The notes beneath the pieces are model-generated. The model made no database searches. It saw only the letters and a program-made list of their open reading frames with translations, and was not told where the DNA came from. A stretch of 38,778 nucleotides of DNA from contig JAFLCE010000032.1 in assembly GCA_017303655.1 (NCBI GenBank), positions 1 through 38,778 on the forward strand, given 5' to 3'. Position numbers and translations under genes: made by a program. Below are positions 162-32,575 of this stretch, in pieces (the stretch's first letter is position 1; the number at the start of each line of letters is the position of its first letter). Source of the stretch: Anaerolineae bacterium (GTDB lineage Bacteria; Chloroflexota; Anaerolineae; Anaerolineales; Villigracilaceae).

Positions 162-3100
162 ATGACCGATTATTTATTTCGTGGTTCGCTCGAAAAATTG
201 GACAAAGATATTTACGAATTGACCCAGCTCGAAGCGGAGCGACAGTATCGCAAGCTCATCATGATTCCCAGCGAATCGACTGCGCCAATGGCAGTGCGTG
301 AAGCGTTGATGTCTGCCTTTCAGAACATTTACGCCGAAGGTTACCCCAGCGAAGAATCGCGCTGGATGAGCGAGGATGAAATTCTCGATCACCCGATGAG
401 GCTTGCCGATTATCGCCGCAACGGTGACCCGCGCTATTACAAAGGCGTGGAATATGCCAACGCCGTGGAAGCGCTCGCCCGCAAACGCGCCGCGCAGGCT
501 TTTGCTGCAAACGGATTTACTGCCAATGATATTTACGTCAACGTGCAGGCGCTCTCGGGCGGACCTGCCAACAATGCGGTCTATCAAGCCTTGTTGAACA
601 TCGGCGATACCGTGATGGGACTCGACCTGCTGCATGGCGGTCATCTCTCGCACGGCTCACCGGTCAACCGCAGCGGCAAATGGTTTAAGGCTGTGCATTA
701 CTCTGTAGGCGCGGACGAGAAACTCGATTATGAAGCTATTCGTCAGCTTGCATTGGAACATAAACCGAAATTGCTCATCGCCGGTTACTCTTCCTATTCA
801 TGGATTCCGGATTGGAAGAAGTTCCGCGAGATCGCCGATGAAGTGGGTGCGTATTTACTGACCGACATCTCCCACATCGGTGGGTTGGTGGCGGCGGGCG
901 TTGTGCCTTCCCCGATTGGTATTGCTGATATTGTCATGTCTACGACTCACAAGAGTCTCGATGGCCCACGCGGGGCGGTGTTGATGACCACCAAAGCCGA
1001 CATCGCCAAGAAGATCGATAAAGCCGTCTTCCCCGGGGAGCAGGGCGGACCTCACGTGAATGTCTTCGCGGGTTTGGCGTTGACTTTCAAGCTGGCGCAG
1101 ACCAAGCAGTTCAAGAAACTGCAAGACCAGACCATCAAGAACGCGGTGGCGATGGCAGATCAATTCACCAAGCGCGGACTGCGCGTTCCATTCGGCGGCA
1201 CGAATAGCCACATGCTGAACGTGGATTGCTCATCCGTCGTCGGTGAGGATGGAACGAAGTTGAGTGGTGACCAAGCGGCTCGCATTCTCGATATTATTGG
1301 CGTGGTCGTTAATCGCAACACCATTCCCGGTGATAAGAGCGCGGCGGCGCCTTCGGGCATTCGCCTCGGTACGCCATGGATCACCCAGCGTGGATTCAAC
1401 GAGAAGCAGTCGCGCCAACTCGCAGACATCATCGCGGATGTGCTGTTGGCATGTGCGCCGCATGCAGTGGATACCGTCCGCAAGGGCAAGCAGCGCCGCG
1501 CAAAAGTGGACTTCAAAGCCTTCAACGATGCCAAGTTGAAGATCCGCAAGTTGGCAATGGGCGCAGGCATTGACTTCAAACCGACCAAGACCGGTTACCC
1601 GCATTTCTATTACATTGACGATAAAGCCACCACAGGCGTGTACGAACTCAGCGGTCAGCGCATTCGCCAAGTGTTGGATTATGTCGCATCGTCTGACCTT
1701 TCGGCGTTGAAGAAGGGCAAGACGCAGGTCACTTCGATTGCGACTCCCAAGGGAGTGGTCAAAGGTTTGTTGAAGAATGTAGATAACACCACCTATCAAT
1801 TATCCGTTCCCGTGAAAGATGCTTCAGTTGTAGGAACATGGTTGCGCGATCTTTCGGATGGATACACCTCGTTCAATTTGGACGGCTCGAAAGATTTCAG
1901 CACCAAGCGTGTGCCGGGTCCGTTCGTGGTGAGTGAAGTGAAGGCGAAACTCGCTGCTACGAATCCGCCGCTTCAGAGTGAGGTCAAGCCTTGGTTTGTA
2001 GGCGTCAGCTCAAACGTTAAGGAAGAGGCGCTGCCGCCTTTCGTTTGGAATGAAGCTGAAGGTGAGTTAAAGAAAACAGCGTTGAATCAAACTCATAAGG
2101 ATCTCGGCGGCAGAATGGTCCCCTTTGCGGGTTGGGAAATGCCGGTGCAGTATACGGGGATTTTTGAGGAGCATCTTGCCACGCGTAATGCGGCGGGACT
2201 CTTTGATGTGAGTCACATGGGCGCGTATGACGTGCGCGGCGCGGATGCCGCCTCTTTCCTCGACACGGTCTGCGGCAATGACTGCGGAGGTTTGATGCCG
2301 GGTGAGAGTTTGTACACCCACTTCCTGACGCCCGATGGCGATGTGATCGACGATACGTTGGTCTACCGCCGCGGATTTGATAATTTCCTGGTGGTGGTCA
2401 ACGCGTCGAACGATGACAAAGACCGCACCTGGCTCGAAAGCGTGCGCGATGGCAAAGTGAAAATTGACAACGCTCGTCCGTGGGCGCGCGCGTACGGCTA
2501 CAACGCGGAGATCCGCAATTTGCGTGACCCGAAATCTGGCAACGACATGCGCGTGGACATTGCTTTGCAGGGACCGAAGTCTCGTGATATTTTGTTGGCG
2601 ATGGGCGTGGATGATGAAACAAAGCAACGAGTTATGAAGTTGAAGCGCACCGAGTTGTGCGATGCAAACATAGGCGGCTTTGACTTGATCGTTTCGCGCA
2701 CGGGCTATACCGGTGAGAAGATGGCGTTTGAGTTGTTCGTCCACCCGGATAGTGCCGTGGCATTTTGGAACGGCGTGTTGAAAGCGGGTGAGCCCTTCGG
2801 CGTGAAGCCCATCGGCTTGGGCGCGCGTGACTCTTTGAGAACCGAAGCCGGTTTGCCTTTGTATGGTCATGAGATGGGATTAGGTTCTGGCAAAGGCGAT
2901 GGCTTTGGCTGGGAGTACATGGAACAGCGCGACTTTTCGGGTACCCTCATGCGTGACCTCGGCGTTGCCGAAGGCGGCTTTGGTTCGTATGTGAAGACCT
3001 ACAAGCCGTGGTTCATCGGTCGCGATGCCTTCGTGGCGCGTGAGAAAGAACGCAAGGGTGTGGTGGTGCGCTTCACCTTCGACGAACAGCGCACGCGCAT

Positions 3101-3314
3101 GGCGCATAACGGTGACCCGGTGCTCAATGCCGACGGAAAACGCATCGGCTTCGTGACCTCCTGCGCCATCGACAGCGCGCGCTTTATTACCGGTCAGGCA
3201 TACGTGCAGTTAGCGTACGCGAAGGAAGGTACGGTGATCGGGGTCAATCAGGGCGGGAATGTGGAACGTCCGGCAGGAATGGCGAAGGTGGTGAGTCGCT
3301 TCGCGAAGTTGTAG
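162..3314 (+). CDS. glyA-gcvT: Serine hydroxymethyltransferase-aminomethyltransferase (GcvT) fusion protein
   Basis: The 1050-residue product joins two folate one-carbon enzymes. Residues about 1-440 are a PLP-dependent serine hydroxymethyltransferase; the Schiff-base lysine is K264 in [12 protein letters not shown]. Residues about 460-635 are a linker that I do not recognise. Residues 640-1050 are the glycine-cleavage T protein, starting at [20 protein letters not shown] and including [10 protein letters not shown] and a slightly variant [10 protein letters not shown] folate-site region. GcvT makes methylene-tetrahydrofolate from the aminomethyl group carried on H protein; SHMT uses it to turn a second glycine into serine, so the fusion would couple both steps in one cytoplasmic chain. 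The start is supported by AGGAG seven bases upstream. gcvH and gcvP are not in the window. The last 33 bases are repeated in diverged form at 5410-5442. Confidence 0.93.
3282..3314 (+). repeat. Left copy of the 33-bp direct repeat (functional gcvT 3' end)
   Basis: These bases encode the last ten residues of GcvT plus the stop. They match 5410-5442 at 30 of 33 positions by eye. Together the copies flank the PIN-GNAT/ASCH cassette. Confidence 0.85.
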
Positions 3315-11802: not shown

Positions 11803-12582
11803 ATGCTGGAATACGTCAACCTTGAACTGGCTTTGTCACAGGAAGAATATAAAAAACGACTGCGACCCTTGCAGCAGCGGCTCTATGAATTGGAGCACGC
11901 CGTCTTCGATGCCAAGGTTCCGGTCATCATTGTGTTCGAGGGTTGGGCAGCCACGGGCAAGGGACGGCTGATCAGTCTGCTCGCAGAACGGCTGGACCCA
12001 CGCGGCTTTCGCGTGGTGCCGATCACACCGCCGCGCACGGCGGAGACGCGTTATCCGTGGATGTGGCGCTTCTGGCAAAAGATTCCCGCCCGCGGGCAAA
12101 TGGTCGCATTCGATACGTCCTGGTATCGCCGGGTTTTGATCGACCGTTTGAACAAGACCGTCAACAAAAGTGAAATACGTGCTGCCTATCAAGACATTGC
12201 CGAATTTGAAGAGATGCTCAGCGCCGATGGAACCGTCATCTTGAAGTTCTGGCTGCACATCAGCGAAGCGGATCAGCATAAGCGCATCAAGAAATTACGC
12301 AAAGATAAACTAACCGCCTGGCAAGTGAGCGAAGAAGACCTGCTCCAAAACAAACGCTATGAAAAATACACGAGCTATGTCGAAGATATGATCGCCCGAA
12401 CCGATTCGCCTCACTCTCCCTGGACCATTGTTGAGTCCGCTGACCGGTATTACATGCGCATCAAAGTTTTTGAAACCATCATCGCCTCGCTCGAAGCCCG
12501 TTTAGGGTTGCCCGCTTCAACAGGGTCCAAGTCCAAACGTTCACGCGCAACAAAAGAAATGAAAGGAGCCGTCAATGCTTGA
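11803..12582 (+). CDS. Polyphosphate kinase 2 family protein, degenerate-type partner
   Basis: A 259-residue PPK2-fold protein. It has a Walker A loop EGWAATGKG (K53), ERLDPRGF, and the lid/Walker B region as FDTSWYRRVL where active PPK2 enzymes have FDRSWYGRVL, so one usually conserved arginine is Thr here. The partner gene that overlaps it is canonical. In two-domain polyphosphate:AMP phosphotransferases (class II PPK2) an N-terminal half with weakened motifs is fused to a catalytic C-terminal half, and these two genes look like the same architecture as separate chains. It may be structural, regulatory or weakly active. GGAG lies upstream of the ATG. Confidence 0.85.
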   Translation: MLEYVNLELALSQEEYKKRLRPLQQRLYELEHAVFDAKVPVIIVFEGWAATGKGRLISLLAERLDPRGFRVVPITPPRTAETRYPWMWRFWQKIPARGQMVAFDTSWYRRVLIDRLNKTVNKSEIRAAYQDIAEFEEMLSADGTVILKFWLHISEADQHKRIKKLRKDKLTAWQVSEEDLLQNKRYEKYTSYVEDMIARTDSPHSPWTIVESADRYYMRIKVFETIIASLEARLGLPASTGSKSKRSRATKEMKGAVNA

Positions 12583-13282
12583 ACGACTCGATCTTACATT
12601 GGCACTTGAACGCGAAGACTATGACACACAACTCAAGACCTTACAGGCTGAAGTACATGAGCTGGCGTTCGAGGTGTATGCACAGAAGCGACCCGTGGTC
12701 ATCGTCTATGAAGGCATGGATGCCTCAGGCAAGGGTGGCACCATCAAACGTTTGACTGAACGCATCGATCCCCGCGGATACGTGGTCTGGCCCATTGCAG
12801 CTCCCTCTGGCGAAGAGAAAGAGCGTCACTACCTATATCGCTTCTGGCGGCGTTTGCCTGAACAAGGACAGATCGCCATCTTCGACCGCTCCTGGTACGG
12901 GCGCGTCTTGGTTGAACGCCTCGAAGGCTATTGCACCGAAGCCGATTGGCGCCGCGCCTATAGCGAGATCAATCAGTTCGAGCGTCAACTCACTGAATCT
13001 GGCACGATCGTCTTTAAATTCTGGATGCACATCAGTAAGCAGGAGCAACTGCGCCGCTTCAAAGAGCGCACCCGCACCAATTACAAAACATGGAAGATCA
13101 CCGATGAAGATTGGCGCAATCGCGGCAAATGGGAAGATTACATCATCGCCGCCGAAGAAATGCTCTTGAAGACCAGCACCCCCGATGCCCCCTGGACGTT
13201 AGTGGAAGCCAATGACAAATACTTTGCGCGTATCAAGTCCCTGCGCACAGTCGCTGAGAAATTGCGCCGGGAATTGAAGTGA
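12575..13282 (+). CDS. ppk2: Polyphosphate kinase 2 (nucleotide phosphotransferase)
   Basis: A 235-residue cytoplasmic enzyme with intact PPK2 motifs: Walker A EGMDASGKGG (K53), RIDPRGY, and FDRSWYGRVLVERLEGY. The family moves phosphate between inorganic polyphosphate and nucleotides. Resemblance to the catalytic half of polyphosphate:AMP phosphotransferases suggests AMP to ADP, but substrate class cannot be fixed from sequence alone. The ATG lies eight bases before the end of the upstream paralogue and has AAAGGAG before it, so the two are translationally coupled and may form a heteromer. Confidence 0.9.
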   Translation: MLERLDLTLALEREDYDTQLKTLQAEVHELAFEVYAQKRPVVIVYEGMDASGKGGTIKRLTERIDPRGYVVWPIAAPSGEEKERHYLYRFWRRLPEQGQIAIFDRSWYGRVLVERLEGYCTEADWRRAYSEINQFERQLTESGTIVFKFWMHISKQEQLRRFKERTRTNYKTWKITDEDWRNRGKWEDYIIAAEEMLLKTSTPDAPWTLVEANDKYFARIKSLRTVAEKLRRELK

Positions 13283-24060: not shown

Positions 24061-24129
24061 AGAAATGTAAGAAAATATCTCCACCAGATGTCCTTCACTC
24101 GTAACTCATAACTTTATCAAGGACATTTC

Positions 24130-24744
24130 ATGGATACTTTCACACTAACCATCTTCTCTGATTACATATGACCATGGTGCTATGTCGGCCAGGGTGTGGT
24201 CGAGAGGCTTAAGAAAGAATACAACGTGGAGGTGGACTGGCGTCCGTACTATTTGCGTCCAGATACTCCACCCGAAGGCATGGAATTGCCTGATTACATC
24301 AAGCGCGCCAGAGACAACGGCTCAGAAGAACGTCTGCAAATGATGGCTGAAATGCACGGGATGAACTTCAAGTCTACTGAGCGTATTTACAACACACGCA
24401 TTGCCCACGAAGCGACGGAATACGCTCGCGAGAAAGGCAAAGCCAACGAATTCCATCACATTGTCTTCCGCAAAGTGTATGCCGATGGATTCGACATTAG
24501 CAAGTGGAATGTGCTCCGCGCTGCCGCCGAAGAAGCCGGGTTGGATGCCGCTGATATGCAGATGGTGGTGGAAAGCGGAAAATATACAAAGGAAGTGGCT
24601 GGGCAAGTGCAGTGGGCACAGCAGATCGGTGTCACTGGTGTCCCTACTTACGTCATCAACAACAAATATGCCATCGTCGGCGCACAGCCTTATGAAGCCT
24701 TCAAAAATGCGTTGGCACAGATCGAAAAAGAACTAAAGAGTTAG
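24130..24744 (+). CDS. DsbA/FrnE-like thiol-disulfide oxidoreductase, probable selenoprotein (UGA at residue 14)
   Basis: From ATG 24130 (AAGGA seven bases upstream) the frame reads MDTFTLTIFSDYI, then TGA (24169-24171), then PWCYVG and onward without interruption to 24744. DsbA proteins of the FrnE type carry a CPWC active site after an FSDxx strand, so the UGA sits exactly where the first catalytic Cys belongs: U14-P-W-C17. A hairpin at 24185-24203 fits the bacterial SECIS pattern. Downstream features are intact, including the cis-proline loop GVTGVPTYVI. The product would be a 204-residue thioredoxin-fold oxidoreductase with selenocysteine. An alternative GTG start at 24196 would delete strand 1 and the active site, so it is unlikely. 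Sequencing error or pseudogene remain possible; selA/B/C are not in the window. Confidence 0.85.
24185..24203 (+). promoter_or_regulatory. Bacterial SECIS-like hairpin
   Basis: TCGGCCA (24185-24191) pairs with TGGTCGA (24197-24203), one G-U pair, closing the five-base loop GGGTG. The loop starts 21 bases after the UGA and its first two bases are G, both as expected for bacterial SECIS elements. Confidence 0.65.
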
Positions 24745-24752
24745 TTAAAATG

Positions 24753-24788
24753 AAATCCGGCGGCTTGAAAGCCGCCGGATTTTTATTT
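24753..24788. terminator. Shared terminator between the selenoprotein-like gene and the exonuclease gene
   Basis: AAATCCGGCGGC (24753-24764) pairs with GCCGCCGGATTT (24771-24782) around TTGAAA, followed by a T run. Confidence 0.88.
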
Positions 24789-29147: not shown

Positions 29148-29240
29148 TGGAAATCCTCGTTTTTGAATTGGTTGTTATTTTACGCCAGTTCGGTCTTCAA
29201 ATCAGATAAAATTATCTCACCTTGTTTACCGGAGAAAACC

Positions 29241-29876
29241 ATGCATGATCCTGAAATGAACGAAGATTTCGACGAGCCCGCGACCTTTACAGAAGAGATC
29301 GATACCGCAGCCATCGAAGCATCCATTCGATCCATGTTGACTGCCTTCGGTGAAAACCCTGACCGCGAAGGTTTGCAGAACACGCCCAAACGGGTAGCAC
29401 GCATGTACCCTGAATTGCTCAGTGGTTATCGCACCGATGTGGATAAACTCGTCAACAACGCGATCTTCAATGTGACCTACGATGACATGGTCATTGTGCG
29501 CGACATTGAATACTTCAGTCTGTGTGAACATCACATGCTGCCTTTCATGGGGCGCGCGCATGTTGCCTACATTCCGAAAGGACAGGTGATCGGTCTCTCA
29601 AAGATTCCCCGCATAGTGGATATGTTCTCTCGCCGTTTGCAAGTGCAGGAACGCATGACCCGTCAAATCGCAGACTTTATCAACGACCTGCTTAAGCCAC
29701 AAGGTGTAGCTGTAGTGGTGGAAGGCTTGCATCTGTGCGCGATGATGCGTGGTGTAAAAAAACACGATGCTCGCATGACGACTTCCGCCATGCTGGGCTC
29801 GTTCCGTAAGAGTATCAATACCCGCCAGGAATTTTTGGATCACCTCAACCGTGGCGCGGAACCGCTAAGGATCTAG
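29241..29876 (+). CDS. folE: GTP cyclohydrolase I
   Basis: A 211-residue enzyme that converts GTP to 7,8-dihydroneopterin triphosphate, the first step to folate and other pterins. Zinc ligands are visible in [10 protein letters not shown] (Cys, His) and [11 protein letters not shown] (second Cys). The core motif [18 protein letters not shown] starts near residue 37. I start at 29241, with GGAG seven bases upstream; a TTG extension to 29163 gives an unrelated hydrophobic tail. The 3' end overlaps convergent folK by 32 bases. It faces folB, folK and a folM-like gene, so pterin synthesis is clustered here. Confidence 0.95.
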
Positions 29877-31496: not shown

Positions 31497-31564
31497 GATT
31501 CGAACGTTATAGCGATTGCCGATGTTTTGCGAACTTCAAATTTAATTTTAGAAAGGTGCAAATC

Positions 31565-32575
31565 ATGACCAGGAATCAAAACGTACCGGCTTATACAGGG
31601 GATATTGCAGCACAGCAGATCACTTCGCCAGAATATTCAGAAGCGAGTCAGGAAATTTTGTTTTCAGAAGAACAGCATGCCATTTGGGCAGACTTGTTCG
31701 TAGGCATCCATCAGCCGTATCTGACCGAGCACATTTGCGCGGAATGGAAGACTGGCATGGAGTTGTTGCAGCTTGACCCGGGGCGCATCCCAACTGTGAG
31801 ACATCTGATTGACCGTATAACGCCGCGTTCGGGTTGGCGCATTGAGCGCACCGTGGTGCGTTACACCATGGCAGACGATTGGTATAAAAAATTTTCTCAG
31901 CGTGTATTTTTAATTACCGATTATTTACGCACGCGTGACCAAATGGAATTCACACCCGAGCCGGATATGTTCCACGACATCTTCGGGCATTTACCATTCC
32001 TGACCCAGAAATTCTATGCGCGCATTGAAGATAAATTTGCGCCCGCCTACCTGAAGGCAACCACAGAAGAACGCGAAGTCATCAAACGCTTGGCGTGGTA
32101 TAGCACGGAGTTTGGTTTGGTGGCGCAGGATAATCGTTTTAAGGTTTTTGGGGCGGGCATCATTTCGGGGCGCAAGGAGTTGACGCGCACTATCATGGAG
32201 TTCTACCGCTTGGGGGTGGATAATGTCATTGACTACTCAAAGGATGTGTACGAGCAATTGAATCAGCATTTCCTTGCCAACAAGAATAACTTGTACAAAG
32301 TCATTGATGGCGTGAATGCACTCCATCAAAAGGGACAGATGTCTTCTGCGGATGAAGGTTGGAATGTGGTGCTTTCGCTATATAAGAGTTTGGGCATTGC
32401 GCAGGAAGGCATGTTTGGCGGGGACGTGATCCTTGTGCCATTCAATGTGGAGACCATTGCGAGGATCCCGAAGACGGTCTATGCCTTTAACCCGATGCTA
32501 TTCGTGAGCCGGTCATTGGATGAGATGGATGAGATCCTTGACTCGTATTTGAAACCAATTGCCGGGCGAGCCTAA
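31565..32575 (+). CDS. phhA: Phenylalanine 4-hydroxylase (aromatic amino acid hydroxylase family)
   Basis: A 336-residue non-haem iron enzyme that hydroxylates phenylalanine to tyrosine with O2 and a tetrahydropterin. The iron ligands are H137 and H142 in PDMFHDIFGHLP and E182 in WYSTEFGL. It is longer than many bacterial PhhA proteins, with an N-terminal extension of about 30 residues that I cannot assign to a regulatory domain. The ATG at 31565 has AAAGG eight bases before it. It is divergent from a folM-like reductase, and folB, folK and folE lie just beyond, so the pterin cofactor is probably made by its neighbours. The preferred substrate (Phe, Trp or Tyr) is not settled by motif reading. 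Confidence 0.93.
   Translation: MTRNQNVPAYTGDIAAQQITSPEYSEASQEILFSEEQHAIWADLFVGIHQPYLTEHICAEWKTGMELLQLDPGRIPTVRHLIDRITPRSGWRIERTVVRYTMADDWYKKFSQRVFLITDYLRTRDQMEFTPEPDMFHDIFGHLPFLTQKFYARIEDKFAPAYLKATTEEREVIKRLAWYSTEFGLVAQDNRFKVFGAGIISGRKELTRTIMEFYRLGVDNVIDYSKDVYEQLNQHFLANKNNLYKVIDGVNALHQKGQMSSADEGWNVVLSLYKSLGIAQEGMFGGDVILVPFNVETIARIPKTVYAFNPMLFVSRSLDEMDEILDSYLKPIAGRA

Follow-up and report, generated by a model that had tools for sequence, protein, structure and literature searches.

A Probable Selenocysteine Codon at the Active Site of a FrnE-Type DsbA Gene in Anaerolineales

Introduction

When an in-frame UGA falls exactly where a redox enzyme should carry its first catalytic cysteine, is the codon a stop or does it encode selenocysteine (Sec)? 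The question is raised by a locus on contig JAFLCE010000032.1 of assembly GCA_017303655.1 (Anaerolineae bacterium; Chloroflexota, Anaerolineales, Villigracilaceae). We analysed positions 1 to 38,778 of its forward strand, and this whole stretch of 38,778 nucleotides is called the window below. In the usual arrangement, Sec takes the position of the leading Cys in a CxxC motif. An initial annotation, made from the letters of the window, had accordingly proposed a DsbA/FrnE-like gene as a probable selenoprotein, with a ribosome site, a start upstream of the UGA and a hairpin downstream of it. The features considered here are collected in Table 1.

Results

With the UGA passed, the frame gives SDYI-UGA-PWCYVG across the interruption, and conceptual translation confirmed that the frame stays open to its terminal TAG, as the initial annotation had stated. 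The ribosome site that it had reported can also be read in the sequence, 5 nt ahead of the ATG, and AAGGA-like runs precede the ATG in most of the relatives inspected. Upstream of the UGA, codons −7, −6, −4, −3 and −2 encode T, I, S, D and Y in every one of the 32 Sec loci compared, with varying third bases; the protein is conserved on either side of the codon in the relatives compared, showing that coding sequence flanks the in-frame UGA. The mechanical list of open reading frames gives 24196..24744 from a GTG, just the start at which a gene caller had been expected to lose the active site. The gene model is corrected here on this point, as a start 3′ of the UGA would drop the active site, and the same mis-called start is to be expected in related genomes.

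Table 1. Positions of the selenoprotein gene and of associated features in the window
Feature	Position	Strand	Basis
FrnE-type DsbA selenoprotein gene (probable), 204 residues, stop TAG	24130..24744	+	translation with TGA as Sec
Ribosome-site-like AAGGAC, 5 nt upstream of ATG	24119..24124	+	sequence reading
UGA read as Sec14 (probable), position 1 of UPWC active-site motif	24169..24171	+	aligned loci
SECIS-like hairpin, 7 bp, loop GGGUG	24185..24203	+	fold, synonymous diversity, stem pairing
GTG, start of mechanical gene call, within hairpin, 3′ of active site	24196..24198	+	ORF list
Inverted repeat then T run, terminator-like	24757..24784	+	sequence reading

The inverted repeat listed last is strong and lies between the Sec gene and an exonuclease-WYL gene on the opposite strand. 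Elsewhere in the window, a 1050-aa ORF (162-3314) appears to be a fusion, with a match to serine hydroxymethyltransferase at residues 91-424 and one to the glycine cleavage T protein at residues 641-905, two PPK2 polyphosphate kinase genes adjoin with a slight overlap (11803-13282), and matches to GTP cyclohydrolase I and to a biopterin-dependent aromatic amino acid hydroxylase lie close together (29163-29876 and 31556-32575). To look for a second interrupted selenoprotein gene, we tested the stops of the window's 29 main ORFs: seven are TGA and none of the seven is followed by more than 15 open codons, in a test that is blind to genes with a UGA soon after the start, such as 24130-24744, so that others may exist.

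The encoded protein matches the Pfam DSBA family (PF01323) with 140.3 bits against a cut-off of 25.6 over residues 5-196, and hence carries a thioredoxin-like domain along its whole length. The closest relative of solved structure is FrnE of D. radiodurans (chain 5cnw_A, 3.2e-37), which matches end to end, followed by the putative DsbA oxidoreductase SCO1869 (5.3e-25). Sec14 and Cys17 are the only redox residues, Cys17 being the sole Cys, and both columns are invariant in an alignment of 17 proteins (A1) in which Sec is written as C. The protein is probably cytoplasmic, as its start lies only 13 residues before Sec14 and leaves no space for a signal peptide. The gene neighbourhood was considered as a clue to function and set aside: of 79 named loci, which are of unequal lengths, 22 have an upstream DUF4153 gene and 16 have the exonuclease-WYL gene; these genes name no partner, and the sharing looks like shared descent.

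The initial annotation had pointed to an alignment of homologues at the UGA as a check. In the pooled column of 112 aligned loci the codon is TGA in 89, TGC in 21 and TGT in two, and no other codon occurs; four of these loci (L047, L048, L049, L051) had been found by a pattern that already demanded TGA, TGC or TGT, and some species are present in both of the locus sets that were pooled. The UGA thus stands at the redox position, which is Cys in 23 of the 112. A search of 61 genomes at E below 1e-50 returned 35 matching places in 32 genomes, 33 of them with an in-frame TGA and two (G012, G024) without; no match at this threshold was found in seven of 37 genus genomes (G001, G006, G010, G019, G031, G033, G034). 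Thirty loci, counting that of the window, were read directly and gave 28 TGA and two TGC. Rather than a stop followed by decay, all 28 TGA loci are open for 186 to 197 codons past the TGA, including two (in G007 and G020; 186 and 187 codons) with an extra TAA close to where the match ends. Among the best 80 of 120 relatives in a scan of named genomes, 74 bear Chloroflexota names (sorted manually); the site could be aligned in 79, with 58 TGA and 21 Cys, one of the two search patterns having required a Cys codon and so biased the set towards Cys forms. One of the relatives (L114) has USWC in place of UPWC, with Ser after the UGA. Two loci under other phylum names, L097 (Planctomycetota) and L102 (Acidobacteria), share 72% and 64% identity with the window protein, and we suspect misnamed or mis-binned contigs.

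Of 301 sampled genomes of the phylum, taken as Chloroflexota from the names of relatives, 86 contain a match at 1e-20 or better; by hand count, a single in-frame TGA interrupts the best match in 54 of these, and the other 32 have no TGA there. We read 35 distant TGA loci, 29 of them among the 54, and each TGA lies within a U-P-[WFY]-C motif, the locus script having favoured TGA where a choice existed; two distant control loci without TGA have TGC and TGT at the site. The genome of the window itself carries a second Sec copy (G000:C120:5992-6597, L047), 64% identical, with a TGA and the same hairpin core.

The hairpin downstream of the UGA has the sequence TCGGCCA-GGGTG-TGGTCGA. Its 7 bp and G-starting loop are as first described, but the distance of 21 nt assigned to the hairpin is that of the loop, and the stem begins 14 nt past the UGA. 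Taken alone the structure is weak evidence, since the fold of 81 nt around it is not unusual in energy (z = −0.32) and, among 20,000 random synonymous recodings, 6.0% produced all seven pairs in the original position and 10.8% contained a hairpin of equal quality. An Rfam search of 24080-24380 matched no family up to E = 5. The case for a SECIS is decided by comparison with relatives and not by folding of a single sequence.

In that comparison the codons of the hairpin show very little synonymous change in the Sec genes. Codons +5 to +9 of 32 Sec loci are GTC (32), GGC (32), CAG (31, with one CAA), GGT (31, with one other residue) and GTG (32), as against GTG, GGT, CAG, GGC or GGT, and GTG in two Cys loci. 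Synonymous diversity was measured in six-codon windows across 82 distinct genes. In the 61 Sec genes it falls to 0.047 at codons +4 to +9, the lowest of 195 windows (median 0.508), and the window from +5 is third lowest at 0.064. The constraint is absent from the 21 Cys genes, where codons +5 to +10 score 0.627 (rank 135 of 195, median 0.601). The SECIS that had been placed just downstream of the UGA is thus borne out by a synonymous constraint that is found in UGA genes and not in Cys genes.

Pairing tells the same story. With the register fixed, the paired fraction of stem cells is 0.879 over 90 distinct Sec segments, compared with 0.238-0.446 when the register is slid by 1-3. For 22 Cys segments the value is 0.591 against 0.325-0.539, so part of the stem is kept, as shared protein sequence alone would give. 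At least six of the seven pairs form in 76 of the 90 Sec but only four of the 22 Cys segments, and with the peptide PWCYVGQ held identical the counts are 58/58 and 3/16. Among the other, more distant Sec segments, 18 of 32 reach six pairs and 14 fall short at the fixed register; by eye, several of the segments below this level have a shifted stem and some have none at the site. Pairs 2, 4, 5, 6 and 7 occur as standard pairs with both sides changed among segments, and the stem can be rebuilt from other bases, as in TCGGCCA/TGGTCGA of the window and TCGACTC/GAGTCGA of locus L140. The first loop base is G in 83 of the 90 distinct Sec segments.

A further check suggested at the outset was for selA, selB, selC and selD in the same genome, and all four were found in the assembly (4,605,709 bases in 172 contigs, 93.55% complete, 5.82% contamination). 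SelA matched at 9.3e-133 and the SelB wing domain at 1.6e-16 within a 631-aa frame; tRNA-Sec scored 68.5 bits, above its cut-off of 47, and was also called by ARAGORN, with anticodon tca. SelD matched at 8.0e-108 with one in-frame TGA inside the match (G000:C129:40505-41434, L045), for which reason the SelD of this genome is itself probably a selenoprotein. At the level of contamination given, any single sel gene could sit on a foreign contig. In 14 well-known control genomes the cut-off was passed by SelB in one, SelA in two, SelD in two and tRNA-Sec in five, so that a tRNA-Sec match alone is unspecific. The SelB wing domain is present in 54 of 57 genus genomes. It was not matched in the remaining three, G003 (77% complete), G014 (71%) and G080 (97%); G003 and G014 carry the UGA gene, and we tentatively take their SelB to lie in missing sequence.

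Sec and Cys have exchanged repeatedly at this site. On an 82-row tree inferred with the site masked, seven Sec/Cys changes are required, at least six of them forced by well-supported branches, against 18.8 with shuffled labels; the ancestral state is unsure because of the midpoint root and the meeting of long outgroup branches. Cys rows fall within or beside Sec groups at L055, L071, L118, L107 and the pair L033/L034. A SelB wing match is present in all six of their genomes; in G372 and G374 it lies within short open frames of 214 and 135 aa. In L107 (Anaerolineaceae bacterium UBA2260, around 3025-3060), which shares 91% DNA identity (544/596) with the related Sec loci L035 and L099, the site is TGC and all seven stem pairs are kept.

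Discussion

Our results point with high confidence to a FrnE-type DsbA oxidoreductase, probably cytoplasmic, whose UGA would be decoded as Sec through a SelB-bound hairpin. The initial proposal that UGA replaces the first catalytic Cys agrees with the sel genes, with a column that holds only UGA or Cys, and with a hairpin constraint confined to Sec genes. Comparative genomics supports both that coding continues across the UGA and that the hairpin is under a constraint linked to this codon. By analogy with established bacterial Sec insertion, SelB with Sec-tRNA would bind the hairpin and bring Sec to the UGA. In the product, knowledge of the DsbA fold suggests that Sec14 may serve as the attacking and Cys17 as the resolving residue of the UPWC motif, and that the cis-Pro loop may lie at TGVPTY.

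Other readings of the UGA have to be weighed against these observations. A Cys codon could have become TGA through an error in sequencing or an isolated nonsense mutation, leaving a pseudogene; a single base separates TGA from TGC and TGT, and 23 of the 112 loci have Cys at the homologous site. The other 89 loci, from independent assemblies, nevertheless have TGA at the site, as do relatives with as little as about 30% identity; moreover, the downstream frame is open, protein residues are conserved on either side, and the hairpin codons are constrained in TGA genes only. We consider this explanation refuted already and give it practically no weight.

It is also very improbable that translation truly starts at the GTG of the mechanical ORF list and that the region upstream is untranslated. 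That product would be missing both the first strand and the entire active-site motif of the DSBA domain, for which the Pfam match begins at residue 5, whereas the residues before the UGA are conserved through synonymous changes and the upstream ATG is the start used in Cys relatives. A further reading is that a suppressor or an altered genetic code inserts a residue other than Sec at the UGA, such as Cys or Trp; the homologous residue is Cys, so a misinserted Cys would give a working enzyme too. The assembly, however, holds the whole Sec pathway; TGA terminates seven of the window's 29 main ORFs and is thus an ordinary stop here; and the hairpin accompanies the UGA codon but is relaxed in Cys genes. 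Non-Sec readthrough is therefore most unlikely, and Sec is the reading we adopt.

If the UGA is read as Sec, the distribution of the gene would mean that a large group of uncultured Chloroflexota includes a thiol-redox enzyme dependent on selenium. Within the group, locus L107 is most simply understood, from its sequence, as a recent Sec-to-Cys change with a probable relic SECIS, although its TGC may stem from an assembly error or the change may have run in the reverse direction. More broadly, we think it likely that Sec-using Anaerolineales have undergone several Sec-to-Cys reversions with the Sec machinery kept, L107 being a fossil selenoprotein with an intact SECIS. If this is true, the family provides a natural series for the rate at which a SECIS decays after Sec is lost, and may also show why a lineage drops Sec at one active site only. 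Sec and Cys orthologues together form a clean data set for SECIS evolution.

Among characterized proteins the nearest comparison is FrnE (DR_0659) of D. radiodurans, which the window protein matches over its full length with Sec14 aligned to Cys22, so that UxxC lies over the CPWC of FrnE. The two differ in that FrnE has Cys where the window protein has Sec, and in that the C-terminal CXXXXC of FrnE (residues 239-244) is absent from the window protein, whose only Cys is Cys17; some FrnE proteins are described, in the text available to us, as likewise lacking this motif (PMC8945050). The same text presents D. radiodurans FrnE as a cytoplasmic DsbA-family oxidoreductase and proposed disulfide reductase, the mutant of which is sensitive to cadmium and diamide (PMC8945050), and by analogy we infer that the window protein may have a FrnE-like role. 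The NCBIfam family NF041057 (Rcas_1661 family thioredoxin-like (seleno)lipoprotein), by its name another thioredoxin-like family with Sec members, was considered and rejected, as it scores 44.2 bits against a cut-off of 190 over residues 91-197, outside the active site.

The window gene very probably adds a well-supported member to a selenoprotein family described before. COG2761, to which the published family is assigned, is presumably the FrnE group. In the portions of the literature available to us, a DsbA-like selenoprotein with UxxC (COG2761) appears in the Sargasso Sea paper of 2005 (PMC1088965), DsbA 1-3 selenoproteins in the GOS set (PMC2398784), four DsbA-like selenoproteins and three Chloroflexi selenoproteins in a 2006 survey (PMC1794560), and DsbA-like protein form 1 (UxxC, PF01323) in a 2026 review whose main text, as available, has no word beginning Chloroflex (PMC13188914). 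Compared by names, motifs and domain accessions only, the published family shares with the window protein the DSBA domain, Sec as the first residue of UxxC and a SECIS just past the UGA; it differs in that members of the window type are Chloroflexota, which these sources, to the extent available, do not name for the family. A literature search at the level of titles and the beginnings of abstracts gave no description of this gene in Anaerolineales. No principle is changed, the DsbA-like UxxC family having been in print since 2005; what is new is its spread in Chloroflexota, the second Sec copy, the repeated Sec/Cys changes with SelB kept, and a TGC beside an intact hairpin.
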